Positions 31,204 to 61,799 of a stretch of DNA of 64,000 nt are shown piece after piece (the first letter of the stretch is position 1; each line of letters starts with the position of its first letter). A program made the translations under genes and the position numbers. Source of the DNA: Utricularia gibba. Its lineage: Eukaryota; Streptophyta; Magnoliopsida; Lamiales; Lentibulariaceae. The notes below the pieces were generated by a model that searched no databases, had not been told where the DNA came from, and saw nothing but the letters and a program-made list of their open reading frames with translations. Location: assembly GCA_002189035.1 (NCBI GenBank), contig NEEC01000031.1, forward strand, positions 186,001-250,000, written 5' to 3'.

Positions 31204-31670
31204 ATGGAGGGTCATGACATTCCGCGCCAAGGTATGGATCCGATCGACGAAGCGTCGGAGTCGCTCTTCCACGACCGTCGCCGTGGCTGTTTCTCCTTGC
31301 CCTGCTTCGAACGGCCGGCGGATTCCTCGGGGAGAGGGGGGAGACGTCGTGGTGGAGGAAGATGGGGGGAGACGCGCTTTGGGAACGTGGAGTCGACGCG
31401 CTGAAGAAGATCCGTGAGTGGTCGGAGTTACTGGCGGGTCCCCGGTGGAAGACCTTCATCCGGCGGTTCAATCGGAACCGCGGCAGTGCCGGAAAGAACG
31501 CCAATTATCAGTACGATCCGCTGAGTTACGCCATGAATTTCGATGAAGGGTATGGAAATTTGAACGAGGAATCCGACGAGGGGTACTACTCCCGGAATTT
31601 CTCCTCAAGGTACGCTAAGGGCACACTGGACCTTCCCAAAACTGCAGCGATATCACCGAGCTCAGTCTGA
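31204..31670 (+). CDS. small plant-specific protein of unknown function, with one apparent frameshift
   Basis: The N-terminal part (from ATG 31204) has a DEASESLF segment and a Cys-containing RRRGCFSLPCF motif. The C-terminal part (another frame, open from about 31355) has GVDALKKIREWSELLAGPRWKTFIRRFNRN, then YQYDPLSYAMNFDEG and a FSSRYA tail. Both halves belong, in this order, to one uncharacterised plant family of about 150 residues as I remember it. Adding a single G in one of the G runs at 31329-31332 or 31336-31341 joins them into 156 codons. I therefore treat this as an intact gene with a missing base in the assembly. A real frameshift cannot be excluded. Function is unknown. It is divergent from TOP1. 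Confidence 0.7.
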
Positions 31671-32095
31671 AGTTGGGGTGGATTTCAAGCTCCTTTTTTT
31701 ATCTTTTGGGATTGAAAAAAAAAACAAGATCATGATGGTACAAGAAATTCTTCGTTGTAAAATCTGGATTTTTGTTGGTCTGTAATCGTATGTACACTCT
31801 TCTGCTTCATCAATGTTCAAGAGGTGATTGTGGATGGAAGAGGCAATAAAAACTGAATTCTTGACGTGGTTTGTTCGTCGCCAGTCAAGCCCTAGCTGGT
31901 ACCATCCCCTTCATTTCAATCATCAGCACTAGGAGAATATGCCCTTCTGATGCGGGTCTCTCTGACTATGCCTTATAATAATAATGACACTGTCTGAATT
32001 CCATTTTCTTGCTTGTAAGCTGTGAGTTTCAGCTGGTCTACATGATGAGAGGGTACATTTACAGCTTGCTGAGAACAGTCATGGAAAATCCAGGA
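31671..32095. other. intergenic, convergent gene ends
   Basis: 3' regions of the small gene (+) and RDR2 (-). No gene is seen. Confidence 0.55.
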
Positions 32096-35000
32096 TTAAG
32101 AAACCAAAGGCCAAGAATTTCTGCCGGCTTTTATGTCAAGCAAAATGGAGCCTACCGCCCAAGGGAAGCCCAAGCAGTTTCTATTTGGATGTGGATGGTA
32201 GGTGACGAAGTACCAAGCCGAGGCCAATTTTTTGTCATCACCTTCTTCATTACAGCTGATGCTGAACCATTCCTTGACTTCCTCCATAAGGTTCTTCACA
32301 GAAATCATGATCCGTTCCTTAACTTCACTGTACCTCCGATTATCCAGTTGCAGGTACGACGATTTCCGGTTGAGGTTTCCTGTGAGGATCTCCACTTCGC
32401 TCTTGGCTTCGTAGTAGTTGCATAGTATGCTAATCTTTTCCACGTACTCCTTTCTGTGCACCTCTGCTATGCCTAGGAATGCTTGGTACCCCTCCACTAT
32501 GAGATCAGGATCGAAAGCCTCTGAAAAAGCCTGGTCTGCATCATCGCATCTGAGGTTTGTTCTGTTGATGAACTCGATCGTGGCACGGTAGAGCTTTCCT
32601 AAGGCACCTTGAGAGACATACATCGGCTTGCCCCATCTCTCCATGAAATCTGGGAATAACCGGGGCCTCAAGGCTCGAGGCATCTCAGCCGGCGCTCCAG
32701 TTTTGGCGAAGTCTACGGCCATAGAATGAAGGTTGGCGAGCTCCAAACATTTTGAGCTGAGGGCTTTGTCAGGCTCCAGGTCTGCATGGACCAAATGCGC
32801 GTTGGAGATGGCTCCAAGCGTATCGCTCACCATGTAATCAGCGAAAAATCCATGGATTTCCTGAGACGTAATGATCACATAAAGCAGCGCTCTATGAAGA
32901 TGGAGGGCGTTCATGCGTTACCTCCAAGGTGACTTGGTGGTCCATGATGCGTGGCCTTCGGCCAGTGTAGTCCATGGGGTCGACGGTCCGTGGGGGGATC
33001 AGATTCTCGTCCCAGCTTACGAAGTAGAGATCACCATCGAGATCACCACCCGAGCATTCATTCGGGTGAGGCCTGCAAAAGCAGCGTTCAGCTTCCAAAC
33101 TAAATCACACAAGGCAGCCACAAAGTGCCTACCTATGGCCCTTCTGTGGGAAAACAAGGACATCCACCAGATTCTCCTTCAGAAATCTTGAATCCACGAC
33201 AGCTTCAAGCACTCGCACATCCCCGGGATGAAGACATGGATTCTTGGTAACAGTCACTTTGCCAGTTACCACCGCTGTGGTATCGTCCACCTTCGTGAAG
33301 AATGGTTGGGGTCCACTTTGTAGCTCGGACTTCCTCATCGTCACTCTAACATACACCTGGCCATACTCTAATGTCCCTGTTTCATCCATCACCCCAACCA
33401 AGACACGACCTTTTGGGACAAAAATACGGCATCTGCTTCTTAGGTCGGATATCTGACCCTCAAGATAAGACCGAAGCATCATATGCAGATAAGGATCTTT
33501 TGGGGGTGTATAGCCTAGAGCCAACATTCTTGGTATGATGCTTTTGTTACCAACTACGCCACTGCTCTCTAGAACATTGATTGCAACTTGTGGATCCATC
33601 AGAATATTTCCCCATTTCTGCAGTTGATTCTCCAGCATCTCCAAAAAGACACTATCTTTGACTCCCAGAGTCCAGAGCAAGACTACAATCTCCCGGTTCA
33701 AGTAGCAGGGCTGTGATTCACTGCACTTGGTGATGCTGAGCATATAGTTGTTGGACTGAAACTTCAGCATACTACCCCGCAGGCCTAGTTTATGAGAAAG
33801 ATGGTTAACAGCTACAACTCCTTTATAGCCACCATAACGAATCTGGAATGCTGATGGAACATGCTGCAAACGTAACATATCAGCTACATCTCTAGCAAAA
33901 CTAGGTGAAATCTTTCCAATGCCATCCGAGAAGCAGTATTTAACACCGTCAGTGACGACTTCAATGTCAGAAATATCTTCAACATCAGTAGGGGGACAAC
34001 AACGATTTGGGATGATGAGCTAAACAACTGGCCCATCCTTGCTGCACATTTCGAAATGCTTCGGATCTCATTGAAGCTGCCCATCCACACTCTGATATCC
34101 TCTGCTTTGACATGGTCATTTGATGCAAACATCCAAACTGAATTTGAACGCAACTGACTCGCAGAGAAAGCCAAGAACTGAAACTTCTTCTCCCCGATAA
34201 CAATGCCATCTTGGAGAATGGACAGAATGCGGTAATATATATCAGTTCTAAAAGGCATTGCAAAGATACCTCGCCTAACAGTTGTTGATATGGCTCCAGC
34301 AGGAAGGCGACCCCAATCCTCGTCAACAAAAGTTACCCTCACAAAGTCTGTAGCAAAGGAAGCGAACTTCTTCACTATATAGTTGGAACTTTCTAGCTCA
34401 GGACCCATGCAAAAGATCTTTGAGGGAGTCACAAGAATTCTGTGGCAACTCATCACATTCTTATTCTCTAAAAGCTTAGAGGCTGTTACCCTGCGTCTCT
34501 TATTGTTTCGAGTGGCAACAGAAGATTCTCTTTCAATCCACTGGCTAGGGTTGTAACACGTAGATGGCAAGTTGTAAATGTCCTTGAGAAGTTGCAATGC
34601 AGTATCCACATCTAAACTACTAAGGGTTTTGAAAAGATCAGAATTGACTGCAGCTATGCTGATCTTTTGACTATGTACAAGTAAATTCAGCTGAAATAGC
34701 ACCTCATAGTCTATCTGAAAATCAGAGCTGTTCTCAACAACTGGGACTAAGTTCGAGACATGATCCAGTTTAAATTCACTGAGACACAGTTCCCTCACAT
34801 GCTTTGACAAGTATGGCAAAGAGGCCTGTAAATCTGAACCTGACCATCCTTCTTTAATCTCCCAACAAAGAGTTGAAAGATATCCAATTGACTTCAGTTT
34901 TGAAAAATCAGTTGTTCTTACCCACATAAAATCTGTCTCCTCTTTGCAAATATGATACCGGTCATTAGAGAATCTTAAAGCAACATCAGGGCCCGATAGT

Positions 35001-38533: not shown

Positions 38534-41500
38534 TCATATCAACAGCCACTGGCCACAGAATCCAGCCATGCTGCAGGATCTTTTCCTACACGATGTAGAA
38601 TCTATCCCGCAATCCTCGTCGGTTAGGCATCTGTGGTCAGGACGAATATCAGGGACGTGACAAACACTTTCAAACTCCTGATGCCGGTGCTTGAAGAGCG
38701 CCGGGCAGATTTGCAATGACATTGGACTTAGATTGTATCCAGCATCTTCACCCTGAAAGGTTTATCGGCACAACTACAATCTTGATAGAACTTGTGGATC
38801 AGTTGAAAAACGAAATAAGAAGCATGAACAATACCTTAACAGAAGTCCAGTTACAGGATGTGTAGGTCTCAGGAAGTGTCTCGTGCCAAGAGGCTAAGAT
38901 AGGAAGTGGATGGCCTTCTGTTGTAAATATGTAGTTACGGCTGGCTAAAAACGAGTCATCGAACAGAAGGTACAAGTACTTGCACCTGCAGAAGAAATAA
39001 CCATATGAGTAATACTTACACAACAGCCCATATAGTAATAAACATGGCAGTGCATGGAGTATCCTGAATAAGTGGAGACTACCTGATTTTTGAGTTGTAG
39101 ACTTATTCTACATATTTTTATTTCACTCATGCAGTGCGCCAAAAAATTCTCACAGCATAATCCTTGATCCCTATGGTAGCATGATTATATAACGTAAGAA
39201 GCATATCCAGTGGACTCACATCTCCGCAAGGAAGTAACTGTGCTGATGATCTTCCAACTCCATAGTTGTCACATCTCTAATGCTGGCGAAGCCACCTTTA
39301 ACCCGGGTGTAGAAGTTGAGAGAATCAACAATTGACTTGCCAACTTCTAAGTACCATGGATCTGACGACCAGTAACAAAAATTACACAACATGCAAATCT
39401 GAAAGGGAAGGGCTATGGTCAACAGTTGGAATCACCCACATGGTGAAACAGTAAAATGTTTACTTTTGTTATAGCCAAAAGAATCAACCTTTTGTCGCTT
39501 GATAAAGGTAAAATGTTGATTCGGCCAACTCTGGGCGCAGTGGATAGTATTTCTCTGAAGGATGAAGGATTTGATGATCTAAGAGATACCTAAACAAAAA
39601 GCAGAAAGCCTCACCTGAGAAACTGCAATCAAACAAAATATGGTTCTGGAGGCACATTAGTGACCTACCCCCCCCCCCCCCAAAAAAAAATGGAAAAGTG
39701 AAGTACATGACAAGTAAAAGATGATACCTCTCAGGCATTACACCAAATTTTCTCCAAATATTAAAAAATTCACGATGGGATGAGTTTGCAGCTGCAATAT
39801 CCCCAAGAAGAACCTAATGAAAAAAAAAATTCAGGAATGCTTCAACAGAAAGCTAATACGTTGTTGTCCACCTGAAGTCCAGGCCAAAATGCTTGAAGGC
39901 TTGTAAGTTGCCAATAAGTTGCTCTCCCTGTCCGCATGTCAGCTTCATGATACCTGAGAAATGTTTATACTCATTTTAAATGGCCTTCAACTGTTCAGGT
40001 TGGAATAATTACCATTATCAAGTATGAGCAACTAAAACAATAAAACCAGTCCAGAATCAATAACTGGTGGATGCTAAATCGGAACATTACCAAGGGCCAT
40101 GCCTAAAATACTTCTGCACTGCAAGATAGGCAGATTGGAACATCCTCCAGAATTCTTCGTTGCCAAACAGAATATATGCTTTAAGTAGATACTCGTAAAA
40201 TGAATCAACACCTGTGAGACAAAAAAAATTAGGAAATCCACCCATGAGAATGTCTCCACTGAAAGAGATGGTAAATCCAAAAAATAGAGGCCTAAAAACA
40301 ATTACAACAAGAAAAATGCATACCTGCACCAATTCCAGATGAGTACTCAATCCATTCACCAGTTGCAACATCGAGTGTGGTGCCTAAAAGATTCAAGGAA
40401 CTCCTCATGCTCCATAACTTGCGAAGAGCACGAAAAGCAGCAAACTCAAATCTTGAATCTCCAGTTAAACGAGACAGAGCACCCATTTCGAGAATTAGAG
40501 AACCTAAGCAAAAAATCGAATTTGAACTACACAAATATCATGTGCATACCAGAGAGAGACGGAAGAGACGAGTTCTTACCACAACCAGATGTGCTTGTTT
40601 CGGTTGTCTCATTCTCCATCAAACCATGCTGCCACAAATTTATATATCGCTTATAGAAAACTTTAATGAGCGAAAAAAAAAGAACCGCTGTTTGAAACTC
40701 CACACCATCTATTTCTTGAAATACAAACACTTCCCTGCTTTCATCTATTACAATAACCCAGCCACATATTTTAATTGCATTTATCATATTCTAGAGCTTA
40801 GCGTTTACAATTTTCAGTCCTTGAATGAGAAGGATACATATGAAAATAATAAATGTTTCTTTTGAATAAGCTTTAAACTATCCTCCAATAATTAACTAAT
40901 ACCTTCAGATTGATCCATGCGTAAGGCAATCCAGAAGGGGTGTCAAATGCTGGCAAAAGCCGCCTTCCTAAATCTTCAGCTAGGACAAGAAGTTCATTAT
41001 TGTAAGTTCCACTAATGAATCTGCTTGTAGGATCAGTTGCAAGAATATGAGCAGAAACAAGTCCTCCAAGTACTCTTATGTTGCACTACAGAATATCATT
41101 CAAGAAAAAAAAATCAAAAAATAGAGTCTGCAGTCAAGATTAGAGTAACTGCAAAATATTAACAGGGTCTGTAAAGACCAATATTTATATGGCATGTGGG
41201 AGAGCCTAACCTACATGAGATGTAATTAAGTTATCTTAATTAGCATGATCCACTTGAAAAAAATAAGATAATCATAGTACCTCAAACAGATTTACTCTCA
41301 CATCAACGTCAAATGACAGGTTTCTAGATAGCCAAATAACTGCTCTTTCAAACTCGGTATTGTCTCCCAAGACTGCAAGACTGTAAGCAACCATGCACCG
41401 CTTAATGGCCATGGCATATAGAAGCAGCCAAAAAAAAGATAGATTTCACGAAAGGAAATAGAGGTCATTGCTAAAGAAAGCAAATTTTCTTTCTCAGATA

Positions 41501-42512
41501 CGCTATCAACAAACATAAATACCTCGATAGGGAATCAATCAAGGATAGAGCCGATCCATTGTATCCTAGTGACAGATGTTCAAGCTGCAATTTGGAGTTA
41601 AATATCAAGTCAAATATAAAACTAAACATATCAAGATAAAAAAAAAACTCACATTCAAATTTCCGAGTTCAGCGAGAGAATCTGTGTAAGTTTTGCTCAA
41701 AGGCTTCAATTCATCATGCTGAAGAGTAACTGATGTTGATTAACCATATACTTCTAATAAAAGATGCAACGCAACATTCATAGCAGAACACAGATATTTG
41801 ACTCACCGGAAATGCGTATTTCATGTAGTTGTGATATCCATGATAGAACCTGAAACAAAGAGGAAAAATAAAGCAAATCGACAGTGATAACGTGGGAAGC
41901 TCATATAAATGCATGTTTAAGATTGTAAGCCATAAACCAATCTCTTACTACATGTTGCTACAATCTAAGAATGGACTTTTTTTTTTTTTTGTGTGTAATC
42001 AAAATATTAATTAATAATCAAATGCTTACTTCAAGGAAATCGGAAATCCTTGTAACATGAAATCCTATAACTTATATCCATATGCCAAAAAAAAGGGATG
42101 CGATCAATGTTGCTTAAATGCATCAAGAATATTTTTTAAAAAAGAGACAGAAAGTTAAAAGTTGAACACATGGCTGAAAAGCTATCAGTACACAACACCA
42201 ACATGAACTAGAGATTCCCTCTTCGCCAAACGTGACCTCAATCCATTTCAACTATTAGAACAACACTGACCAAGAAAATGCAAATTCTTCAGGTGAGAAA
42301 CGACACGAATCTAGTCTGATACACGGTCCATAGCATAAAATACGAAATCCAAGTAATTCACATGGCACAAGGAGGTGAGCATCCGTACATCCGGCGAACT
42401 TTATCGCTCATTCGCTTCTTCTGAGCAGCAAGAGGATCGGGTTTCAAAAGGGGGAAGCGTTGCATGAGCCTGTGATAATCAGAAGCAATATAAACGCCCA
42501 TTTCGGTGACAT
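38534..42512 (-). CDS. MNS5: GH47 EDEM-type alpha-mannosidase (MNS5-like), with one apparent frameshift
   Basis: Fifteen exons: 42512-42389, 41849-41807, 41718-41653, 41584-41523, 41380-41281, 41085-40903, 40628-40580, 40503-40324, 40211-40091, 39953-39872, 39813-39728, 39589-39489, 39361-39220, 38985-38835 and 38752-38534. With one added base in exon 1 the sum is 570 codons (569 aa). A signal peptide (about [15 protein letters not shown]) is followed by the GH47 barrel: [67 protein letters not shown], and [24 protein letters not shown], ending TTEGHPL. The C terminus is Cys-rich. EDEM-class mannosidases trim glycans of misfolded ER glycoproteins for ERAD. In exon 1 the signal peptide and the body are in different frames. 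One extra base in the AAAA/GGGGG run (42446-42454, plus strand) joins them. Confidence 0.9.
39668..39690. repeat. poly-C run followed by poly-A run in an intron
   Basis: About 14 C followed directly by 9 A on the plus strand, inside an intron of the mannosidase gene. Such runs are prone to length errors. Confidence 0.9.
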
Positions 42513-43413
42513 TCCGCTCGTCGTCGCAGGTTCTCCACCGACAGACAGCAAACTTAGCTGTAGTTGCGTCACGGTGATGGAGATGGCATCGCTCCAGCCC
42601 AATGGGCCGTTGACCACCAAAGAGATGGACGGGCCTTTGGGGGGTGGTGCAGTCACCTTTTCTGTACCCCCCATATTCATCCCGATTTTTTTATTATTAC
42701 GAGCGAGTTCAAGCAATCCCATTATTATCAAATCTGACCCAAGAACTATCTTGAGCTTTTCGCACTTTGGCCCTTTTCAGGAGTCTCCCTCTATATATTT
42801 AGCATTACCCATCTGCCTGCCTGCCTACTCAACTCATGGGGACGGATACCTAGCATTCATGCTGTTAAAGGGTGTTTGATAGTTAGGTATATGAAATTTA
42901 TATCCAAATTGCACTATATTTAAACATGATTATGTTGTGAGGTGTTGGGTGGAATCTATAAGATTTGAATCATTTATGTGCCATTTCGAATGAAGCACAT
43001 GAAATGCAATGATTGCTTTGCTACTTTCAAAACGTACTGAGACAAACGAACTTGCGGGGTGTGTGTGGCATGGAATGGAAAAGGCTCCCTTACCTAATCC
43101 CTAATGATGATGATGATGTGCATGTATCATACATGTATGTAGGTAGGTCTCACCGGGTGCCAAAAACATGTTTAATGAAGAAAGCGGGGACCCAGATGCA
43201 ATTATACCAATCGTCGAGTTTGGCGAAACGGCCTGTCGTCATCTGTGATGTAGGTGACGGCGACCGTGTTCTCACTCTCCTATTTCTCTCTGGCCCAAAA
43301 TCCGGGAATCTTTAGACTCGGTTTCCTCCGATTCTTCCCAAATCTCGGATCTTTTCATCAATTCCTCCATCTTCTAGGTGTCGTTTTTTAATTCCATTGG
43401 TCAGGGGCTGCAG
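42513..43413. other. intergenic region between divergent mannosidase and U-box genes
   Basis: Shared upstream region, with a GAT repeat near 43103-43117 and a TATATATTTA element at about 42793. No gene is seen. Confidence 0.5.
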
Positions 43414-44977
43414 ATGGGCCGAGATGGCAAGTTTCTCCGCCTCTTCAGCTTTTCACCCGCCAGAAAGAAGAAGCTGCCGCCGGAGTATGTTTGCCCCATT
43501 TCCAAGTCGCTGATGTTTGACCCCTATGTTGTTTCTTCTGGCCAAAGCTTCGAGGGTTTGTATGTGCGCGTTTGCAGAGATTTGGGATTCACGCCAACGC
43601 TCGCCCAAGGGTCAACGCCGGATTTCTCATCGATGGTTCCGAATACGGTGCTTAAGAATCTTATCCACGAGTGGTGTTCGCGTAATGGGCTAGAGCTTCC
43701 TAAGCAACCGGCGTATGGTGAGGTAAAGTATATTGTTCTCTCTCTGATGGAGAATGGTGAAAATCCGGGCCTTCCGGCGTCGGAGAGGGAATTGATTCAT
43801 GGTATGCCGGAAACTCCGGGGGTTCTATTCTCACACGCTGACACTGAGTGCATCGGTGGCAAATTTTACCGCTCTTCCAGCTCTGAGGAGTCTGTGGTAG
43901 TCAATAATTCGTCTTTGTTGCCCTTTGCAACTCGACCTTCTTGCCTTTCTTACTGTTCTTCGCCGTCTTCCTGTTCGGGAATGTTCCCACCGAGATTGCG
44001 AGTAATGTTTTCTCAGAATCTTCCGAGGAGGAGGAGTATCTTTCGATGATGCAAAGTCTGGATGTTTCCGACCAAGAGCAGGCCGTGATTCTCCTGCGGA
44101 AGACCACAAAAAGCAGCGTAGAAGCCAGGGCGGCGCTTTGCTCGGAGAAGCTTTTGCTTGCTATGCGCCAGCTGTTGGGCTCACGCTACGCCGCCGTGCA
44201 GATAAACGCCCTGGCATCACTGGTGAATCTTTCACTGGAGAAAGGTAATAAAGGGAAGATCTTGAGAAATGGGATTGTTCCAATGCTAATCGATGTGCTG
44301 AAGAATGGCTCCGATGAGGCCCGGGAGCATGCTGCCGGAGCGATTTTCAGTTTAGCTGTGGAGGATGAGAATCGGACGGCGATCGGAGTTCTGGGAGCGA
44401 TTGAACCGCTGGTTCACGAGCTTAGATCGGGTACGCCGCGAAGCCGCCACGATTCGGCTCTGGCGTTGTATCACTTGACCCTTGTACGCAGCAACCGCAC
44501 AAGAATCGTTCAGCTGGGAGCCACCGTCGTGTTGTTGAGACTACTGAACGACAAAGACGTAGCGTCGCATGTGGCGTTTGTGGTGTGCAACTTGGCGGCG
44601 TCCGACGCGGGGAAAGCGGCGCTGTTCAACAACAAGGCCGTGGAGTGTCTCGTCGACGTTCTGCGAGGCGGGCGGGAGAAGCACTCGGAGGCGACCCTGG
44701 AAACCTGTGCGGCGGCGTTGCAGCTGTTGAGTGACGGGAGCCCGAAATTCAAAGCGGTGGCGATGAGTTGCGGGCACTGGAAGTGCTGGTTGTTGTAGCG
44801 GAGACGGGGAGCAAGCGGGCGAAGGATAAGGCGAAGAGAATACTAGAGCTGCTCCGGCGTGTTGAGACGGCGGAGGATGGAATTGAGGTGGATTGGGACG
44901 CCGTGATGAAGAGCGGCGTGCCACGGCCTGCACACCGGGGCAGCCACCTCCATGCTCCCCACTCAAGTGGATTTTGA
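43414..44977 (+). CDS. U-box/ARM-repeat E3 ubiquitin ligase (PUB38-41 type), with two apparent frameshifts
   Basis: A single exon. With two added bases it gives 522 codons (521 aa). The U-box lies at about residues 20-95: PPEYVCPISKSLMFDPYVVSSGQSFE..., then FSSMVPNTVLKNLIHEWC. After a Ser-rich linker the armadillo repeats begin (YAAVQINALASLVNLSLEKGNK, EAREHAAGAIFSLAVEDENR, RSRHDSALALYHLTLVRSNR, VASHVAFVVCNLAASDAGK) and run to about residue 480. Plant PUB-ARM proteins ubiquitinate receptor kinases and other targets. The frame breaks at a GGG at 43977-43979 and again at a GGG at 44772-44774. One extra G in each restores continuity (SSCSGNVPTEIASN and MSCGALEVLVVVAETG). The start is the first ATG, because the open frame upstream begins with GTG. 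The last 20 residues match the family poorly, so the true C terminus may lie in another frame. Confidence 0.85.
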
Positions 44978-45484
44978 GTTCACTGGAGAAGCTGTTTGGT
45001 GATTCGCGTAGCTGAATTCTTCTTCTACCTTCCTGCTCTTCGTCCTCAAAAAAACTGTAAATGCTCTTTATTTTTAACGATTGAGTTATTCTTGTGAATT
45101 GCAGTATGCGTAATACATGTGAAACCGAGCCGACCAATTATCTTGAGGGTTCTTCTCATCTGATCCAAGCAAAGCTACAGGCATACTGTTATTACACTCT
45201 GCACATGAAATGAATGCTTCTAATCATTCTCCTTATCTCAGCAACCACAAAGATGGGGGACATCACGACATATAGAAGATGGAACCCATTCCTTTCATAT
45301 CTGTTGATCAACATACACACTTACCCCTAGAAAGTTTCCTAATGCCATCAGGTTTCGGCCAGATCAGGTTCTAACGAATCCTCAAAGCGCTTCAGGCGCC
45401 GAGTGGAGCCCAATGGTTTGGCAAACAAGAAAGCAGGTTCACATCGGCATTGGCTCGATGGGTCAATCAGATTCAGTTCTGATG
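44978..45484. other. intergenic, convergent gene ends
   Basis: 3' regions of the U-box gene (+) and pTAC2 (-). No gene is seen. Confidence 0.55.
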
Positions 45485-48423
45485 TCACACTCCACCAGCT
45501 ATAAGTTGGGTGCTTGACCTTGCGCTCCTCGCATTGGCCTTATTCCTGCTGTCTCCGAGTAGGCCTGTTGGGAGAGCGCCTGTTCCAGGCAAGGGGGAGT
45601 TGCATAAACTGAATATTCCAAGGGATTCTGAGTCGTCCGTAGGTGACTTCGTTTTAGAGAAGAGACGCTTCAAGTGGGACTTTTGACAGATTATCCTCCC
45701 CTTGTTCCAACCCGGGAAAAGGAAAGATGATGATACATCTTTCAGCAAAGAATAAGCAGCTTTTGCAACAGGGAAATCTCTTGATGATGCGCTCTTCTCC
45801 ATCATCCCTCGTCTGCATAGAAAAACAAATCCGGTCTATTTGCGCTTTCGGCAACGTCTCTAAAATCAGAAAACCAGTTATTTTGTGCAACCAGAATGAC
45901 CATAAAATATTTAGCAGGATGTCACAGTGAACAGGAATCGTGCACAAAGCTTTTCTTTTGCAAGATTAAACAAACTACGTTTCATTGGGTTGTTTAATTG
46001 GGTTCTCAGAATACTCTACCATGCAATAAAATATAAAGAATTGGCTGTGAGTATGTGATGGAACATGGCCACACAATATTTGGACTAAATACTTACACTA
46101 CGACAACACTTGCCAAATGAGGAGGCTCCCTTCCGTTAGTCAGGAGGTCATGCATATCGTTCAGCCAGACAGATATTGCAGTACATGCACCACCAGGCCA
46201 CATTCTGAAAGATTAAAGATGAGATGCTATCAGCAAAACAAGAAATTACCCTCCTGAAGTTCCTGTTTACGACAAAAACAGAAGGCAATCTACCTGTGAA
46301 CGTCCACAGACCATATGTTATTGTTTTTACGAAATAATTCAGGATACAGACCCCTCTTCGTTGCTTCACGAAGCACTCTAGCTGCCCTTTCCTTCTGCCC
46401 CAGATGCCAGAGCGCTTCCAAAACTGCATTATAAAACTTAATCCCATAACCGCACCCCTCGGAACTGAGTTTGTCAAATGCGTATTCTACCATTTGCCAA
46501 TTACTGCTGTCATCAAAAGATCCCTTAATCATTTGTCCCATAACCTGGTGGGCAGTGGATCCTCTGTTTGTATGCATCTCGGTTAGCAATTCATTTACTT
46601 TGTCCCATCTTTGAGATTTTGCATACACAGCCAACATTGTACAGTAACATGTAACACTTGGTTGTATGCCCAACTCCTTGATTTCAGTAAATTGCCGCTC
46701 ACACTCATCGACAAGGCCTGCAAAGGAATAAACACTCAAGACTGCCTCAAGGGTATATTCGTCAGGATCGCACCTCACCTTTTCATGTCAACATAAGCCT
46801 GTAAGGCATCTTCATATTGTCCAGCTTGTCTATATCCTTCAATCACACCATTCAAAGAATCTCTATTCTTTAACACTCCGAGCTCATTCATTCTTGACAA
46901 TATCGACTCAGTTTCTTTGTAAAGCCCTCCTCTTGCAAAACTATGAATCAGAGTGTTGAAGGTTTCAATTGTTGGAGAACTCCCAACCTCATTCATGGTA
47001 TTGAAAGCAACAACAGCTTCCTCATAAAGCGCAGCCTGACCATAAGCTTCAATTACACTTGTATATACTTTGGAAGTTGGTGTCAAGCTTGCATCATTCA
47101 TATGATGCAAAATCTTCTTTGCTTCTTCATGAAGACCTCCTTTCCCACAAGCATGGATCAGACCTTCATATGTTTCCATATTGGGTTCCACATTCTCTTC
47201 CACCATATCATGAAACAATGTCACTACCTCCTTGAAATACCCCCCTTCTCCAAAAACCTGAATAAGTATATTGTATGAAGCTGCATCTGGTTCCGTGTTG
47301 CTGACTTTCATATCTAGGAAAAGCTCCCTGACCTCATCATACCTTCCATGCCTCCCAAACAATTGTAACAAAATGCCATATGTCCCAGCATTAGGCGTAC
47401 AGCCAGCAGCTTGCATTTGCCTGAAGACACCCATAGCTTCGCTTATCTTCCCAGAACGAGCATAAGCTTCTAACAACACATTATAACTCATCGCCTCTGG
47501 CATATTTCCGGCTGCTTCCATCTCCTGGAGCGACTCGGAAACCTTCTCCAAGTTTCCCGATTTCCCAAATGTCTCCACTAAATACCTGTAGGTAGTAATA
47601 TCCGGCAGCACCCCACTGTCATTCATCGTCCTAAACACCATATGAGCCTCATCTACCAATCCCTGGTGGAGCATGCACTCAACAATGTGTTGTAAGTGAT
47701 CAAATCCGGGTGAACACCCTCATGCCGCATATCACCGAACAAACTCAACAGACCCTCCCATGGATATCCGCCTCTTGCACAAGCATTAATGACGGTATTG
47801 TAAGTCAATATATTAGGCAATATTCTTTCTCCCTTCATTCTATCAAGCAATTCAATGGCAGTCTCATACTGCCCATTTCGACCGTAGGCGTTAATGATCG
47901 CCGTGTAAGAAAGAACGGTTCTGGGAACAGAATGCACCGTCATTTCATCAAATATCTCGGCGGACTTATCCAGAAGCCCTTCACGACCAAGGATTCCGAC
48001 AACGAGAGCGTAAATATGCTCGTTAGGCTTACACCAAATCTGGCGCTGCATATACTTAAACAGGCGAAGAGAGCGCTGCCAATCCCCACGCTGCGCGAAT
48101 TCCTTGAAGACGGAAGAGAAATCAGACAAAGAAAGCTTGTTTTTGAAGGTGTCGAGGCATCTGGCTATGCTTCCGCGTGGCGGGAGGCTAGATAGCTTGT
48201 TAATTAGAGTTTCGACGTCGTAGCTATACTTTCCCTTTTCCACCGTAACGCTTGGGTTCCCAAGGATGAGCTCTTTACTTCTGGACTTGGCCACCACGGA
48301 CAGCCCCCGCCGGGGCCCCGGCAAACGGAAGTGATACCCGCGGCAGGGTTGGAACTCTGCCGCGGAGGTTGGACGCACAAAGGGCGAGAGCAGCGGCCGA
48401 TGGAACAAGGCTAATTTCGTCAT
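45485..48423 (-). CDS. PTAC2: pTAC2, plastid PPR-SMR protein of the transcriptionally active chromosome, with two apparent frameshifts
   Basis: Three exons: 48423-46294, 46204-46097 and 45812-45485. With two added bases the total is 856 codons (855 aa), close to Arabidopsis pTAC2 (AT1G74850, about 860 aa). A transit-peptide-like N terminus is followed by roughly 15 P-type pentatricopeptide repeats (for example HPDLITYNTLLSACS, EPDAASYNILIQVFGEGGYF, TPTSKVYTSVIEAYGQAALYEEA). A C-terminal SMR domain begins near SVDVHRMWPGGACTAISVWLND. The protein is needed for plastid-encoded RNA polymerase activity and chloroplast biogenesis. Frame breaks fall at a CCC run (47661-47663, plus strand) and a TTTT run (46780-46783). 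One base at each restores the family text (STRGLVDEAH; VDMKKVRCDPDE). Long-exon continuity over 2.1 kb argues against real decay. Confidence 0.9.
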
Positions 48424-49528
48424 TGCGGTTACTCCTTCCAGAGCTGCAGAGCATTGCAGTCCGGTGAGGTGAAGTGTTATCTAAATTTTTATAACGCATT
48501 TTATTCAGTTTTTTTTTTCTTTGCGATTGCAGGAAAAAATTGAATTTCAGGTGAGCGTATATGAAGGGAATCCAGATCCAGATCCATCCACCTTGGGCTG
48601 GAGATGCTGTTTCATCCCAAATAAGCCCAGCCCAAATGATGCCCGGAGATCATCGTCTCTCTTGCAACCCAGAACTTGCAGTGAACATAACCAGGCCTGT
48701 CTCAGGGTCTTCACGTGGAATTTGAACGGCAGGTATCGGCAATAAGCTTTCTCGGTGTGAGCCATTTTTGTTATGGCTTCGGCAGCAGCGTTCTCGCCAC
48801 TCAGCAACTCCATCAATGGATTCTTCATTTCATTCCCAGTAATGACTCCCGTAACTCCTATAAGTTTTCCAATCAACGCCGAAGGGGCAGGTTTCGCTTT
48901 AGCTCTCGCATTTGGCCAATATTTCGAGCCTGGGGAGAAACTCTTTCAAGCTACTGGCGTCGGGGTTTCTAGATCCCTCGATTATCGAAGCTACGCACAA
49001 GGCGGCGCCGGTCTGATGTTGGGACCCTGCTCGATAAAGAGGGATTCCAGGAATGGGCTTGCTGAAAGTTGGAGATGTAGGCTGCGGATCAAGTTACCGT
49101 GGTGCTCCGAGACAACAGGAATCAACCGGACGCACTGGCGCAGTACTGGGGATCTGTGGCGGAAATGGAGGAGAGAAATGGGAGATGAGCGGGGATTCAA
49201 GCTCCGTCCCAGCAGCTCCCGGGCCTCCGCCTGCTTGTTGACGTCGTGCAAAGAAAACCAAATGCACCTCTGCCGGGAGGGCGGAGCATGGAAGCAGATT
49301 TCTGGTGGCGCGTGGCGAACTTGGCGACATTCTGAACCATTATGACACATCGACCAAGTTGAGTAAAAAAAATAAATTACAGACTTGGAAATTTGGTGAT
49401 GCTGTAATTCAACCAAAATGGCTACAGACTCCACAATTTCTGTTCCATAATCTCACCGCTTCTGCCATGCTCATTCATTATTCTTTCTGAAGGGACATGT
49501 GTCATGCTGCAACACTTGATTGGCAGTA
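48424..49528. other. upstream region of pTAC2 with an unresolved coding-like stretch (48773-49350)
   Basis: The plus strand has an ORF of 190 codons at 48773-49345 (MASAAAFSPLSN...). From about 49010 another plus frame, broken by stops, also looks protein-like (a TLLDKEGFQEWA piece, then a DQVTVVLRDNRNQPDALAQY piece, then an LPGLRLLVDVVQRKPNAPL piece). GC content is raised. I recognise no family, and a minus ORF covers 48991-49434 as well. It may be a gene with frame errors, a decayed copy, or chance. Confidence 0.3.
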
Positions 49529-51209
49529 TTACAGTAGCCGCTTGTGCTTGTAAAATGCAACTAGAATTACGAACAGGGCGATGCTCGCGACGGTCGATCC
49601 GACGACCAGTCCGAGGAAGTTGGGCATTCCGGACTTCTCGGAATCGTAGAGGCCTATCTTGATGTTCATGGCGAACAGTCCGGACAAGGCCACGTTGGCA
49701 CCGGCCAGCATCGTCCCGGTGCTCACCAGTATTCCAACTCGCAGCAGACTGTTCTGTCTGTCATCCAGAATAATGTTTATGTAGTCCTCTGTGTCGTCCA
49801 CGTACTCCCTCAACTATAAAAAAGCATCAAGAGTGAAGAACACACGGACAACATGAATGGCTGCTCGACAAACTCTAAAGGGGCATTAGGAGCTCACGCT
49901 TGTCAGAGTTTGCAACGTGCCTTGAATCTGCACAAAATATGCTTCCAAGATCATCTCCAGCCCCTGAACATCATGATGCTTTGAGGAAGCAACATCCCTC
50001 GCGCTTCCTTCATCCACCACATTCTTTTCCTTGTCTCCCCTGAAAATGGTGTCCTCCCAAGTCAAGGAAACGACAAAGAGTTGTGTTAGCAAAGTAGAGG
50101 TAGTTTTAAAATGCCTGGCTTCCTCTTCTTCTTCTTCAACTTCATCATCATCATCTCCGTCGGTGATATAATTAAGAATGTTTGAATGTGATTGCTCCAG
50201 CTTGTCTGTTAGATACATAGCTGCCATGTCATCGTCGTCATCCAGAAGATGCTCCAGTTCATCCCTGACCTGGTGTTCGATGATGATAAGCGTAAGGACA
50301 TTTTCACATTCCATCCCGATGTGGGACAATCGAGTACTTACCTTCTGTACACGGCCTGTCAAGGAGGCCAAACGAGCCTTTATATTGCGCACAAGGTCTA
50401 TATTGGGAGAGCTTATCTTGGAGACCAGCTTATCTAACGCTGGATGAGCTTCTTGCTCCAACGCCTTCGCCTTCATTGAGGATTGGTGGAGCGTATCAGA
50501 GGAGAAGGAAGACGTGCTCAAATGAAAAGATGCGCGGTTGGTTACCTCACGGTCCAAGGAGACACAAACACATTGAAGACAGGCTTCGAGCGCGACAAAT
50601 TCAAAGGGGAGAAGCTTTTGGGGGTTGTTCGAATGTTCACTCATGTTATTCCGGTGCTCTTTTTCGTCATCGGAGCATCCATCGCAGCTTTCTCCAGGAC
50701 TGGAATGCGGCTCATTCAGACTACACAAATCTCCACCAGCTTCCTGAAAAATAAAATAATCAACACCCAGAAAAAAAGAGAATCAAAAGATGGCTCGTCG
50801 TGAGTGCTTGTTGGCTAACCCAAGAAGAGGAAATGGCATGGCGGTGACTAAAAATCTGGCGAAGGTTGTCGATAAAAGGTGCGACCAGGGGGTGTTTGAA
50901 ATTCAAAAACATGACTTGTTGGGCGGTGATGATCGCCTTTATGTGTTCGAGGTTGACGACGATGGCTGTCTCCCTCCCCAAGATCCTGGATGGATGCGAC
51001 AGGGAGGGCTCCAAGATCCTAAGATCTCGAGTCGGGATCCCCGTTCGCTTCTTGATTGCATGCTTCCCAACTTGCTCGATCACTCGGACTTGGCCCGTAG
51101 GATCCACCAAGACCCAGGCCTGAACACGCCACCCCTTCTTGTTCATGGGAGCAGCAGGAGGAGGAGGAAGAGGAGGAGGAGCCGTCCACTGTTCATCGTC
51201 GCCCTCCAT
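49529..51209 (-). CDS. MRS2/CorA-type magnesium transporter with AMN in place of GMN
   Basis: Four exons: 51209-50820, 50743-50342, 50269-49898 and 49813-49529, 483 codons (482 aa). Family blocks are KKRTGIPTRDLRILEPSLSHPS and ILGRETAIVVNLEHIKAIITAQQV in the N-terminal domain, PFEFVALEACLQ and HPALDKLVSKISSPNID in the stalk helices, DELEHLLDDDDDMAAMYLTDK, LEMILEAYFVQIQGTL, LREYVDDTEDYINIILD, and two transmembrane helices near the C terminus. The pore signature after TM1, Gly-Met-Asn in nearly all family members, reads Ala-Met-Asn at about residues 436-438 (codons 49672-49664). The intron 50341-50270 is open in frame, so it could be mistaken for coding sequence. It was removed because it interrupts the conserved GRVQK-VRDELEHLL join. 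The exon 1 donor (W/gttagc) is the least certain junction. An acidic insert (DGDDDDEVEEEEEE) precedes an unusual hydrophobic stretch in exon 3. Confidence 0.85.
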
Positions 51210-51655
51210 CGTCGCACAGGCTCTATTTCTTCGATCCAACCCCGTAGGCAGGCGCCATTAATAAAGGGGAGGCCGGAGGGAGCCTGCCTACACATAGCAT
51301 TGGAAGAAGATGTGCTGCCCTGTAGCACTAGAACTTGTGGTGGCCACTGGTGGAGGCACATTGCGATTGGCGAGAATGAAGAAACTGGAGTTAAACTAAT
51401 CAAGATTTGATCATCAATAACCCTTTGACTAATGAACCGTTTCATTGATCACCCTACGACTTTGGACTCCATAGAAGCAAACCATTTGCTGAAGAAAATT
51501 GAATTCAAAAAACATGTGGAGACCGGATGGGTGGACACATCATTCATTGCCTTTTGCTGGGGTTATATCCGTTGGTTAATCAGGGCGGGCGAATTTGGCA
51601 AGACACAACAATATAATGATGATGATGACAGTAATAATAATAATGGTAATATCAT
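51210..51655. other. intergenic region between MRS2 and DOMON genes
   Basis: Promoter and 5' UTR side of the MRS2 gene (-) and the 3' end of the DOMON gene (-). It includes GAT/AAT trinucleotide repeats near 51617-51645. No other gene is seen. Confidence 0.5.
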
Positions 51656-54342
51656 CTATCTGTTCATCGGTTCCAGCTGAACCTCCGACGAAACGCCGTC
51701 CTTCTCTACGCTAACTCCGTTCGGACTCAACAGGTCAATGCCCTCTTCCTCACTGTTGCCCAATACCCAACTGCTTTGTCCGAGGCACTAATGCCTCGGC
51801 GTCGACTCATCGCACGGAACTCTAAATAAACTACGAACAAGGCCGTGACGAGGAACCAGAGTATCAGAGCCCAGCTGAGTCCGTGGACGTTTTCGTCGCC
51901 GTACCGGTCCCCTAAATGCTTCATTCCACTGAAGAGAGCTGCAATGCCCAACCCAAAACCGCATCTCCCGGTTATGACATGGATATACTCCCATATCACC
52001 CTCTTTGTGGAAGCTGCTTCCCCGTTTGCAGGCTTTTTGGGTCTTAGGTACGCGTTGATCGGCTGGGCTACCGCCAGAAATATTGCCACCAACCCCAAAA
52101 TAACATGTAAAGAATCGAGAATTAGACCACGCAGTTCAGCAACGGCAAAAAGAAATCCCAGGAAAACGATCGCCAATCCTGAGCGTTGCATGTACACGTG
52201 AATCCGGAACCAACTATCATCCTTCATGTGTTTTAGGTACCTAGCAGCCAGAATCCCTCCGGGCAGCAAAATCCCCCATGCCAGAAACATCATGAAACCA
52301 TGTACAGCCAAAACTGGCCACAAGCCCTCCTCGGCTTCTGCAGAGCCATGCATCAGCAGCACGCTCATCGGCCTCTTGCTGGTCATGAAATGCATGTTCC
52401 TCTCGCTCAGGTTGCTAGCAGTGGCGGACCACTGAGCGCCCATGGCCCATATAACTTTCAAAGGAGATGAAGGATCAATTATATTGCTGCACTCTGGCCT
52501 TCCCTTTCGATCACAACATGGATTCAGCGGACGTGTAAACTCCAGTGTGATAATGCTATTTTCAGATTTGCATCGTACATATGTCAAGTTCTCCTGTGTT
52601 GGATGCACATTTGAAGCATCCCTTCCATCAATCCAGTAAGTGCTCACATTTCCACCACCACTTTCGCCAATGTACCCCACGTAAACGTAGCTATTCACCA
52701 TCCCACGGCCAAATCCGATTGCAAGATAGCCACTTTTCTTCTCAGCTCTCGCAGCAATGGAGATTGAATTCTCTGACAAAGTCCAGAAGAACATAACTTG
52801 CTGATCATCCAACGCAACACTGTTATTATACATGTCTGGCAAACCTCCATCCACCACCTGGACTTTCCATCCCATTTTCGGCGTGAAAAGAGAATGGTAG
52901 TAAACAAGATCCGGCGTGTTTCTATCAGGTGCCCATGTCAACTCTGTTGGACTTGCTGGAACACCTTCTGCTTCTGGACCCCAAAATATATAGTTTCTGA
53001 CATGTTTCTCAAAGTTGCGTTCCCACCAATAGGATCCGATGTGATATAAAATGCCACATCATGTCCAGCTTGTATCGAAAACTTCACTGGAACACCCCTC
53101 TCTACCCTCAAAAGAGGAGCTTCTTTCTTGTTAATATAAAGAACTTTCGTAGGATTCGGGGGTTCGGATAGTGCAATGCCGGGCCACTCGATATAATGAT
53201 CGGATCCTTTTTATCAGCAATAACAAGATCCTGGTCCTCTTTATCCACAGCATCAAGTGGTCCTATACAATCATTTCTATGCTCAGATATGTTAAGCCTC
53301 AAATGACCAAAACTTCCACCATGATTCTGAGGAAGGTAGAAAGGACGAATACTATCTGGTGGCTTCATCGAGCCAGTAGCCCATATCACAACCATATTTT
53401 CCTTGGGATCAACTTTGATGTCATAGTTGGTATCATTAGATTGCAATTGCCTCCTGTACCTGATAAATGATACTCCATCGCTTCTATGCCATAGACTAAG
53501 CTCGTGTCATTTTCCAGGCCACTGGAAACAGAAGTATTATAGATTGTATCCGGACAAACACCCTGAACAGTTCCATCCTGATTTTTCGTGCATTCAGTCA
53601 TTTTTGTAATATAATAATCATGGGCAAATGGCAAGCCATCATTATCAAAGCCTGCAACAACAACATCACTCCCTATCATCAAAGAACCTGAAGCATTGGG
53701 CTTTGCCCAACCAAAAGCCATGTAACCATCAATTTCAACAGTAGCCTCCAAAGCAATTTCCATGGAATCATTTCCAGTTTCAAAATTCCACCACATCCGA
53801 TATGTATCCAACAAAACTATACAATTTCTTAGAGCAGTAAGTGGTTGGACTATTGATGGATTCACCCCACCATCTGGAGAGTAATTACTCAACAAAACAT
53901 GGCCAAAATCAGAAGATGTTGGAACATCCCAAACTGCAACAACTTCGATTTGATCCCAAGTCAAATTATCCCGCAAATGAACAATAAAGCTCTCATTTTT
54001 GAATGTCTGATTAAGAGGAAAATCTGAAATGATGAAGCCATTAGTGAGATTTTGAAAGTCATCCCCAGCTGCACCCCACCAGTGGACATCAGACCCCGGG
54101 AGCATATCAAACTGAGAAACCCGAAACGAACAGCCATCGAGGATGGAAAACTGACCACGAAGCTGATGCTGAACCATTGTAAATTGTGAGGTAAAGTTGA
54201 GAAGAGACGAATTGGTCAAATGGCATCCCATACCCGGATCAGAATAGGAGAGATGAATAAAACCCAGGAGAACACATGAAATGAAGAGAGCGGTTGGGGC
54301 CATAATGAGAGACTGGCTACGAGGGATCGTACTCCGTCCCAT
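51656..54342 (-). CDS. DM13/DOMON/cytochrome b561 protein (AT5G54830 type), with four apparent frameshifts
   Basis: A single long exon. With four added bases it gives 897 codons (896 aa), close to Arabidopsis AT5G54830 (about 907 aa). Order of domains: signal peptide; DM13 (about 50-160, QHQLRGQFSILDGCSFRVSQFD); first DOMON (about 190-340); linker with HYPNPPNPTKVLYINKKEAP; second DOMON (about 510-650, DDQQVMFFWTLSENSISIAARAEKKSGYLAIGFGRGM); and b561 helices (about 690-840), with candidate haem histidines in VHGFMMFLAWGILLPGG, RIHVY, DSLHVILG and WEYIHVITG. CYBDOM proteins carry electrons across membranes, often using ascorbate. Breaks at 53489-53490, 53158-53162, 52979-52982 and 51775-51777 are each repaired by one base. 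The last repair gives the family's WVLGN...EVQLEPMNR ending instead of a short alternative tail. The start at 54342 could instead be 54303. Confidence 0.9.
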
Positions 54343-54552
54343 GAGAATCCAGTATACTCAAATACACATAATTCACCAGTTTGCAGTCGTCTGCAACTGA
54401 CTGACTAGTTTAGAAAAAAGGAGTTTTTAGAAAGAGAAACCGAAACAAAGAGTTCCCCTGGGTAAGTTGCCCCTTTCAAGTCTGAAGATGCAATTTTGAA
54501 CAGAGAAGTTCTACCTTCCTTCCAAATGCATTCAACCTAGAGCGGAATTTCT

Positions 54553-57492: not shown

Positions 57493-57507
57493 GGGGGGGG
57501 GGGGGGG
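57493..57507. repeat. poly-G run
   Basis: Fifteen consecutive G in the 5' region of the dynein-light-chain gene. The length is likely unreliable. Confidence 0.9.
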
Positions 57508-58031
57508 TGTTGCTATTGCTATTCTGCTGATGAATATGTACGGTGTGGGAAGAGAGGAGCACTAAAATGCGCCGAGTCCCCCATGATCTGCTGCTTGGTC
57601 GTAGGCAGACAGACACGTGGGACACTGGCTAGCTCGATTCCATTCAATGGCGCTACACTACACTGCTGCTCCTACTCCTACTCCTACTCCGCCCCCCTGC
57701 GCGCAGTTCCGTGACGTAGTGGGAAAGTAAAACAAGCTTCCCACTCCACGGCCCACGCCAAAGAAACATTTTTGTTGCAGAAAAAAGGAAGCTGTTACGG
57801 GGGAACTGGCGATGGGATGTAACAATTGTATGCAGCTGTTGGTGTGTTGGTGATGGTGATGCTTTGCATTACTTATTGTTGTGGACTGGGAGTTGCCACT
57901 TGGTGGTGTAGGTGATTAGTCTGGTTATGCAGTCACGTGGTGTGCCTGGAGTCGTGTTTAGGCCGGAGGGAGGGCGTTACCAAGAGAGAGCTCCTCCTGC
58001 CCCGGGCCCGGTCGTCGGGATCTACCACCCC

Positions 58032-58058
58032 AGGCTCAGGCTCAGGCTCAGGCTCAGG
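58032..58058. repeat. AGGCTC hexanucleotide repeat
   Basis: Four to five tandem AGGCTC units in non-coding DNA. Confidence 0.85.
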
Positions 58059-58325
58059 CCCAGCGGCTCCGTTTTGAATTTCTGTGGAGCCTACTGCTAC
58101 AGTGGACCTATTCCACCTCAGACCATCCGCCCCCTTTGTTTGACCTTTTTTGATTTGTAGATGCTGCTAATTTGTAAGTAAAAGCAGCAGCAAGATTTGA
58201 ACAATCTGTATTTGCACCAGGCGTGTGCAGGTGCTGGGGGATTGGGAAAGGGAAAGGAGGGCAGGGCATCCCCACTCACTCACTCAATCTACCTGGTAAC
58301 AAAATTGAGTAACGGGATCGGTTGT

Positions 58326-58346
58326 GCCTGCCTGCCTGCCTGCCTG
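58326..58346. repeat. CCTG tetranucleotide repeat
   Basis: Five tandem GCCT/CCTG units in non-coding DNA. This is the same motif family, on the other strand, as the GGCA repeat at 3691. Confidence 0.85.
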
Positions 58347-58967
58347 GTTCTAGTTAGTATCTTTCTCTCATCAACATAACACCATTTGCACTTGTTTGAG
58401 CCTTCCCCTTAAACTCCATACCCCATACTTGGTATTTTTGTCTGCCTTCGTATTTCCATGTTTGAATTAGGTAATATATTTATTATTTTCTATCCGGTTC
58501 CCGATTTTAAAAAGGGAAAAAGTTGAATTTGAAAAGGGGGCCGGGGCCGGGGGAGAACTTGGATGCATCGTCATCTTTCACTCGACTACTCAACTTTGGG
58601 GAGGGAATAGGCGCGTGTAACCCTACGATCCCCTTCAACGCACACCACGTCTCCCCCCCTCCTCCCTCTCTCCGCCAATAGATACACTCAACTTGTGTAT
58701 CTACCCCTGTGCCGCTCGAAGACGCGGTCGCGGTGGTGGTACCCCCTTAGGCTCAACCCTGTACTGAACTAATATCCGCCTATTGGAGGAGGCGTTGTTT
58801 CCAGGTCCCGGACAAAAGCGTGCCTCTTGGATTCTATGAACCCCTCCCTATTCTATTTCTTTCTGTTGATCTTCGCTTCATTCGCATGATCGCCGCCCTA
58901 TTTCGCACCATTTCCCCTACACCCTTCTTCCTTTTTATTCTTTTCTGAAAATTCTACCAGTTGGAAG

Positions 58968-61799
58968 ATGAAGTCGGCCAATTCGGAAGTCTTGTTTGGC
59001 GTTGCCCGGAAGAGGTCAGCTCGACTCCTGCTTCTGGTGTTTGTCTTATACGTTATTTTGGTGGGTTTCGAGGTTCCTATACTATTTAGAAACGGACTGA
59101 GTATGGTATCTGAAGAGGGGTTGGTTAGCAGCAGTAACGGGATCATGAATTCAAAGCCTTTTGCACTTGAAAGCGAGGAGAATCTGGAGGAGAAAGAGGC
59201 CCCTATTCGCCCCTTTGATGTTTCATATCAGAGAAACAGCAGAGAGCTGACCAAGCCGTCGCTTTCTACCTTGAATTTCTCTGCAGCCATCGCTGATTCG
59301 AGTATGGAAGGCGGGATGTTTAATTCCGCAAGAGATGCCCTTGAACTCGGTAGAAGGCTTTGGAAAGATGTTGAATTGATCCATAAAAACAATATCAGGT
59401 CTTCTTTCAGCGCACCCACGGGCAGCAGGGATTCTGAGACGTGCCCACATTCAGTATCGGTCACAGACGATGAATTTTCAAGGAATGGGAAACTTCTGGT
59501 GTTGCCTTGTGGGCTCACGTTGGGGTCCCATATCACGGTGATCGGAAAACCGAGGGGGCACACGCTGAAACTGATACAAAGATTTCGCTTTTGAGGGAGG
59601 GGCAGTATATAATGGTCTCACAGTTTATGATGGAGTTGCAAGGGCTGAAGGCTGTGGAAGGGGAGGATCCTCCGAGAATACTGCATTTTAATCCTAGGCT
59701 GAAGGGGGACTGGAGCGGGAAGCCAGTCATTGAGATGAATACCTGTTACCGCATGCAGTGGGGAACCTCGCACCGATGTGAAGGTTGGAGGTCTCGGGCG
59801 GATGAGGAGACGGGTGAGTGCAATATTTATGGGGCAAATGTTACTCCTAATCTGTGTTTTGCTTGCTTTTTGTATGTACTAAGTGTTAAGCCATCTATCT
59901 CATCACGGATGGTTAACTACTGATCTTGATCAAGAAATGGTGACTGCCACCAATGACATCTGTGCAACTTGAAATTGTACTGTCGAAATTGGGTTAACTG
60001 TTGAGGTTGCTAGAAAGTTGAAAATTTATGCTCTTTGTTTTCCCACTTTAGATATGTATTTTCTTAGGATTTTTGTAGTGGAAAAAACGTTGAATGTGAA
60101 TTTTCGTTGCTTCGCAGTGTGCACTGTATGGTATCATCACTCGTATTATATTTGAAGTGCAATATGCAGTCAAGATCCTTGATGGGTACTGCAGCTTATT
60201 TGATGAATTTTGTGCAGTTGATGAAATGGTCAAATGTGAACGTTGGATTCGGGATGATGATATCAAATCAGAGGAATCAAAGTCTGCATGGTGGTTGGCC
60301 CGTTTAATTGGAAGAACCAAAAAGGTTTCTGTTGATTGGCCTTACCCTTTTGTGGAAGACAAATTATTTGTACTCACTCTCACAGCTGGTTTGGAAGGTT
60401 ACCATGTCAACGTTGATGGAAGGCATGTCACCTCATTTCCTTACCGAACGGTGAGAATTCTACTGGATTTCAATGTTCCTTAGTTTTTTAATGTGTTCTT
60501 TTATGAATATTTATGTTTTGAAGTATAAAACTAGGGATTTGCCCTTGAGGATGCTACTGGATTATCAATCAATGGAGATGTCGACATCCAATCTGTTTTT
60601 GCTGCTTCATTGCCATCTTCGCATCCCAGTTTTGCACCTCAGAGACATCTTGATTTGTCTGAAAGATGGAAGGCTCCTCCGATCCCAGACAAACCTGCTG
60701 AACTATTCATAGGTATTCTTTCGGCTGGAAACCACTTTGCAGAACGTATGGCTGTGAGGAAGTCCTGGATGCAGCATAATCTTATCAAATCTTCAAAAGC
60801 TGTTGCACGGTTTTTTGTTGCATTGGTGGGTACATACAAATTGTTTCTTGAATTATGAAAAGATATTCTTGAGCTAAGATTGGAGCCAATGTTTTTAACA
60901 GCACGGACGGAAAGAGGTAAACATAGAATTAAGGAAGGAAGCAGAGTTTTTTGGTGACATTGTTATAGTTCCATATATGGACAACTATGATCTGGTTGTT
61001 CTCAAAACGATAGCCATCTGCGATTATGGGGTTAGTTGTGAATTGCCAACCAAATCTTTACCACTCTGCCACTCTCAGTTTCCTATCTTCAACTCAATTT
61101 GTCTACTGGTGTTGTTGCAGGTGAGGATTGTGGCTGCCAAATATGTTATGAAGGGAGACGATGACACATTCGTAAGGATAGATGCTATTATCGATGAAGC
61201 GAGAAAACTTCAAGACAGGAGCTTTTACATCGGAAATATGAACTACTATCATAAGCCACAGCGTAGTGGTAAATGGGCTGTTACATATGAGGTATATTGC
61301 CTTGCTGTAAGATTGCCCTTATTTTGATGAACTACTATCATGTTTTCATGTTTTTGTTTTGACCTTGTTGCGCTCATTTATGTTTTGTGCTTTTTAGGAA
61401 TGGCCAGAGGAAAGTTACCCACCATATGCAAACGGACCGGGTTATATACTCTCATCCGATATTGCAAAATCCATTCTTTCCGAATTCCATGGAGGCAAGC
61501 TACGGGTAAGCATAGCCAAACCTCTTTATTCTTGTACAATGCAGGTTTTCATTTCCCATTTTTCTTGAGCTGGAACTTGTTATTGGCAGTTGTTCAAAAT
61601 GGAAGATGTTAGTGTGGGAATGTGGGTTGAGAAATTTAATGGCACAACCCCAGTGGAGTATGTCCACAGCCTGAAATTCTGCCAATTTGGGTGTGTCGAA
61701 GACTACATAACTGCACATTACCAGTCCCCAAGGCAAATGCTCTGCCTTTGGGAGAAGCTAATACTTTTTGGTAGGCCTTCTTGTTGCAACATGAGATGA
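58968..61799 (+). CDS. galectin-domain beta-1,3-galactosyltransferase (Hyp-O-galactosyltransferase, GALT2-6 type), with one apparent frameshift
   Basis: Seven exons: 58968-59813, 60218-60450, 60535-60825, 60902-61030, 61121-61291, 61398-61505 and 61590-61799. With one added base the total is 663 codons (662 aa). It is a type II Golgi protein: a short basic N terminus, then a transmembrane anchor ([15 protein letters not shown]). The galectin-like domain covers about residues 180-395 ([55 protein letters not shown]). The GT31 domain follows: [23 protein letters not shown], the DDD motif at about residues 513-515, [27 protein letters not shown] and [13 protein letters not shown]2-6 enzymes add the first galactose to hydroxyproline of arabinogalactan proteins. 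The break is at a GGGGG run (59554-59558) in exon 1. Confidence 0.92.

Follow-up and report, generated by a model that had tools for sequence, protein, structure and literature searches.

A total of 12 single-base frame steps interrupt seven genes in the Utricularia gibba sequence analyzed here—a window of 64,000 nucleotides belonging to contig C416 (298,690 bases) of an assembly that comprises 100.09 Mb in 516 contigs—and we hold with high confidence that these steps arose as errors in the consensus of a long-read, single-molecule assembly that had been polished incompletely or not at all. In the plant itself the breaks are very probably absent, the affected genes being probably intact and ordinary, and we infer that the plant DNA has longer runs of identical bases at the 12 sites. 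According to the mechanism we propose, the consensus would record one base too few at a repeated base, especially where four or more G or C stand in a row; each such error in a coding sequence would shift the frame by one, and an intact gene would thereby appear broken.

Homopolymer under-calling was the explanation already offered in the preliminary description of this DNA, and several lines of evidence support it: the direction of the errors, their dependence on runs, their spread across the genome, the repeated hits at one motif of GRAS genes and, most importantly, a locus that was assembled twice, broken in one copy and open in the other, would all be accounted for by an assembly that under-calls homopolymers. 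Points that speak against it are the possibly allelic nature of some differences between the copies of that locus, an HSP70 step that is identical on two contigs, the high density of steps in the window and the long G and C runs recorded there. That explanation also has to be corrected on two points. Firstly, the fault is a property of the whole assembly and is not confined to the seven genes. Secondly, G/C runs are hit far harder than A/T runs of equal length, whereas the preliminary description was silent on the identity of the base.

Frame steps in seven genes of the window

All 12 of the one-base frame steps that had been described for the seven genes, which lie within 31.2-59.8 kb, are present in the sequence (Table 1), and each of them is phased as one lost base—nine by alignment and three by three-frame reading only. 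The claim that bases had been lost without any being gained also held, as each of the nine aligned steps corresponds to one base lost; frame-aware alignment of the window genes revealed no in-frame stop, gain or longer indel.

Table 1. Position, strand and evidence for the one-base frame steps in the window
Step	Position	Strand	Change and context	Evidence
Small 31-kb gene	31336..31341	+	one base lost, six-G run	three-frame reading only
RDR2	33991..33995	-	one base lost, five-C run (coding strand)	frame-aware alignment, Arabidopsis RDR2 chain 7eu0_M
MNS5 (GH47) exon 1, probable step	42450..42454	-	one base lost, five C beside four T	three-frame reading only
U-box/ARM gene, step 1	43977..43988	+	one base lost between GGG and CCC	frame-aware alignment, C213 paralogue
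U-box/ARM gene, step 2	44763..44774	+	one base lost, up to GGG run	frame-aware alignment, C213 paralogue
pTAC2, step 1	47661..47673	-	one base lost, up to three-G run (coding strand)	frame-aware alignment, chain 8w9z_E
pTAC2, step 2	46780..46786	-	one base lost, four-A run (coding strand)	frame-aware alignment, chain 8w9z_E
DOMON/b561 gene, step 1	53470..53490	-	one base lost, runs of at most 2 only	DOMON profile switches frame
DOMON/b561 gene, step 2	53158..53162	-	one base lost, five-C run (coding strand)	At5g54830-like profile switches frame
DOMON/b561 gene, step 3	52979..52982	-	one base lost, four-G run (coding strand)	At5g54830-like profile switches frame
DOMON/b561 gene, step 4, near C terminus	51759..51775	-	one base lost, loose placement between short runs	three-frame reading only
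Galactosyltransferase	59554..59558	+	one base lost, five-G run	frame-aware alignment, C321 and C255 paralogues

Alignments were computed with a dynamic-programming, frame-aware aligner in which a lost or an extra base was allowed at equal cost. When RDR2, pTAC2, the U-box gene and the galactosyltransferase were compared with their relatives in this way, the aligner returned missing bases only and none extra. The reference letters for RDR2 and pTAC2 were taken from printed alignments, with X standing for the few residues not displayed. Against Arabidopsis RDR2 (7eu0_M), one base is missing near 33994, with residues 179-531 matched in frame A and residues 534-820 in frame B, and pTAC2 lacks two bases (47673 and 46786) when compared with its solved orthologue 8w9z_E. 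Two bases (43978 and 44763) are likewise missing from the U-box gene relative to a paralogue on C213 whose open frame, 524 residues long, is intact. For the galactosyltransferase, one missing base at 59556-59559 is indicated by two of the three intact paralogues compared, those of C321 and C255; the third (L043, on C412) also indicates a single loss, but at 59607, so that the position of the loss varies with the reference by some 50 bases downstream.

Three of the steps in the DOMON/b561 gene are fixed by Pfam profiles, each of them as a loss: the DOMON profile is matched at positions 4-74 in one frame and 85-124 in another, and an At5g54830-like profile spans three successive frames (positions 1-33, 17-85 and 79-126). 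A search of the genome for a close paralogue of this gene found none. Its fourth step, near 51770, lies outside the Pfam domains and was recognized by three-frame reading only, as was the step in exon 1 of MNS5 (near 42452), where a signal-peptide-like start occupies one frame and the remainder of the exon the next. The small 31-kb gene matched no Pfam family. For this gene, for MNS5 exon 1 and for the C terminus of the DOMON/b561 protein, the three-frame reading was guided by the expected sequence of family members, and it serves as a lead only. Over the initial 31 kb of the window, considering Pfam matches only, no frame step was seen in the conserved domains. Additionally, a genome search for a near-identical second copy of window positions 43300-54400 gave diverged paralogues only.

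Association of the steps with homopolymer runs

The preliminary description had placed the steps beside runs of 2-6 identical bases. By our own placement, 10 of the 12 lie at runs of 3-6 identical bases, one is not accompanied by any run longer than two and one is loosely placed. Runs of two constitute no evidence by themselves, since one in two randomly chosen coding positions has a run of at least three within 4 bases. At the 12 sites, the longest run in this neighbourhood has a mean length of 4.0, versus 2.67 at random positions of the same coding sequence, and a G/C run of at least four accompanies seven of the 12 sites versus 6% expected—figures that flatter the claim, the sites having been placed by us at the frame junctions with a preference for runs, whereas the comparison of two contigs presented below is free of this bias. 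Separately, the window contains a recorded run of 15 G (57493-57507) and one of 14 C (39668-39681), both in non-coding or uncertain sequence, even though shorter runs of G or C seem to have been under-called elsewhere; the true lengths of these two runs may exceed those recorded.

A locus assembled twice

Part of C412 is present a second time in C316, a contig of 38 kb, and the two long collinear blocks shared by these contigs amount to 29,286 aligned bases, over which we counted 23 substitutions, 35 single-base indels and 7 longer indels; the central part of the locus diverges. Nearly all of the single-base indels (32 of 35) fall in runs of at least two, and the shorter copy is that of C316 in 26 of the 35. 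Expressed per G/C run, the differences number 0/7158, 7/1554, 3/392, 5/99, 4/13 and 1/3 for run lengths 1 to 6; the corresponding values for A/T runs of lengths 2 to 5 are 2/2406, 1/809, 1/356 and 1/113, several-fold below those of G/C runs at each of these lengths. The effect on coding sequence is illustrated by a GRAS gene that is open over 615 residues in C412 and over 412 in C316, the cause being the loss of one C from a CCCC run.

Of the two, C316 resembles a secondary contig of lower quality. Part of the differences could represent alleles or near-identical duplicates, in view of the longer indels and the divergent central part. In alleles, however, more substitutions than indels would be expected. 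The duplicate locus, located on C316 (L022-L025) and at C412:825679-860421 (L026-L029), offers a ready internal replicate for the estimation of error rates.

Frame steps across the genome

To gain a broader view of the assembly, the genome was searched with profiles for GRAS, BAHD transferase, HSP70 and GT47 genes—families with few introns—which together matched 133.8 kb. A step was counted where consecutive matches on the same strand had continuous profile positions and left no space for an intron, and the resulting list was filtered by hand. This search yielded about 28 intronless frame steps, distributed over the four families and many contigs, of which about 26 were phased as one lost base. 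When the broken genes were compared with intact paralogues by the frame-aware aligner, events with both flanks well matched comprised 14 losses and 2 gains; the GT47 and BAHD genes were aligned with distant paralogues, at low identity and with gains and losses scattered near introns or divergent stretches, and only well-flanked events were counted. The two gain-bearing genes, both of the GRAS family (L012, C414:3443400-3445200, and L019, C244:2105200-2106600), each combine an in-frame stop with an opposite-phase step and could be genuine pseudogenes.

Strongly conserved genes were affected as well. Two HSP70 copies that share 97% and 95% identity with an intact paralogue each lack one base, at CCCC and CCC, respectively; an example is L080, in which 529 of 547 positions match the intact paralogue, with one loss at CCCC. 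The genome contains about 45 GRAS genes, and about a third of them have a step inside one domain.

In a tandem array of HSP70 genes, the same one-base step occurs in C304:2235823-2237462 and C241:16598-18237 (L037 and L038), which may reflect a systematic error, reads common to both contigs or a genuine change. This pair of contigs was considered as a second replicate and dropped, the tandem array being alignable as one locus over about 2.5 kb only. UDPGT was also dropped as an additional family, its profile covering too little of each gene to reveal steps. The same applies to psaA and psaB as a high-coverage plastid control: these genes were found only on the 267.5-kb contig C515 (C515:69900-74700, L036), where psaB is intact and psaA badly damaged. 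Contig C515 may be, and probably is, the mitochondrial genome with inserted plastid DNA.

Alternative explanations for the frame steps

If the seven genes were real, recent pseudogenes, the plant would have lost the single bases by mutation, a possibility that we regard as very unlikely. Slippage at runs is a natural mechanism of mutation, and a loss in RDR2 would not be absurd given the reported reduction of RNA-directed DNA methylation—a pathway described as reduced in U. gibba, yet with RDR2 listed as present (PMC8333044). However, the nine aligned steps are all losses, the window genes show no in-frame stop where they were aligned frame by frame, and both flanks are highly conserved; moreover, the same kind of step recurs in nearly invariant HSP70 genes and throughout the genome, and single-base indels outnumber substitutions between C316 and C412, opposite to the usual course of natural variation. 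Unitary pseudogenes resemble the window genes in having interrupted frames within otherwise conserved genes, but the latter show no mix of gains, longer indels and stops, and their pattern is genome-wide under strong conservation. We likewise give only a slim chance to a narrower version of this explanation, in which at least one of the 12 steps, e.g., that of RDR2, is a true recent loss that adds to the weak RNA-directed DNA methylation reported.

Recoding that restores the frame during translation, by programmed ribosomal frameshifting or otherwise, is exceedingly improbable, even though the steps of several GRAS paralogues coincide at a conserved position and at first resembled a shared signal. 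Five GRAS paralogues have a step at or beside the motif encoding GGPP, four of the five sites being runs of 4-6 C or G; the runs at the step sites are CCCCC, CCCCCC (twice), CCCC and GGGG, and the gene with the GGGG site has lost another base 17 bases upstream, where the run is only two bases long. The place is rich in G and C and the stretch encodes GGPP in most of the five paralogues, but the letters and lengths of the runs differ from gene to gene, and many GRAS paralogues remain open through the same stretch. No conserved slippery signal common to the GRAS paralogues was found at the shared step position, run length being the only feature that the sites have in common, and one locus is broken in C316 and open in C412. 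The clustering at the GGPP motif is context-dependent error and not a shared signal.

Small introns or misread splice junctions are practically out of the question: the window genes do contain short introns, and the split that a sixth GRAS gene (L010) shows at the GGPP stretch, rejected as a frame step, is a real intron of about 80 bases, but this explanation is refuted at the nine aligned sites, where the junction of the two frames, or their overlap, spans only a few bases and profile or paralogue positions are continuous, leaving no intron space.

Local density of the frame steps and assembly background

The 12 steps of the window are spread over coding sequence totalling about 11.2 kb, or one per 0.9 kb, and profile matching across the genome gives about one per 4.8 kb; the window density is about four times the genome estimate, but the methods differ and the window was chosen for its density. 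Within the Pfam-matched sequence of the window, a rough count gives six steps in about 7 kb. Rates of loss also vary between contigs, from about one per 3.3 kb in C412 to about one per 1.1 kb in C316. We suspect that low read depth is responsible for the local excess.

The assembly is, we infer, the PacBio HGAP assembly already published for U. gibba, which is listed with an N50 of 3.4 Mb; HGAP polishes its consensus with Quiver (PMC5793159). As an additional observation, the sizes of six contigs—C1, C2, C505, C409, C507 and C515—are exact multiples of 2,500 (8,500,000; 6,192,500; 3,452,500; 2,492,500; 642,500 and 267,500, respectively), which suggests trimming in fixed blocks.

Relation to known assembly errors and implications for gene content

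The frame steps are very probably an assembly artefact of an already known kind. Residual homopolymer-length errors in long-read-only assemblies are similar to those described here in that single-base indels concentrate in runs and break the frames of intact genes. One report presents homopolymer indels as the commonest residual error in long-read-only bacterial assemblies (PMC8812927), and another names errors of the homopolymer type as a source of false pseudogenes (PMC12007338). The systems described in these two reports are mainly nanopore assemblies and small genomes, whereas the sequence analyzed here is plant nuclear DNA, probably from PacBio reads, in which losses predominate and G/C runs are worst affected.

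One gene in this genome illustrates a different situation. A fourth Dicer-like locus (C213:2751501-2764000, L039 and L040) has two RNase III domains with no match for Dicer dimerisation, and no helicase-like open frame was seen, by reading and not by profiles, in the approximately 8 kb upstream of this DCL3-like locus. DCL3 of U. gibba has been published as truncated and devoid of the Dicer dimerisation domain (PMC8333044); the locus is in line with this published truncation, which one-base frame steps do not explain. Under-called bases, for their part, would cause genes to be split or truncated in automatic annotation, and claims of gene loss or truncation drawn from this assembly alone require checks against reads or transcripts.
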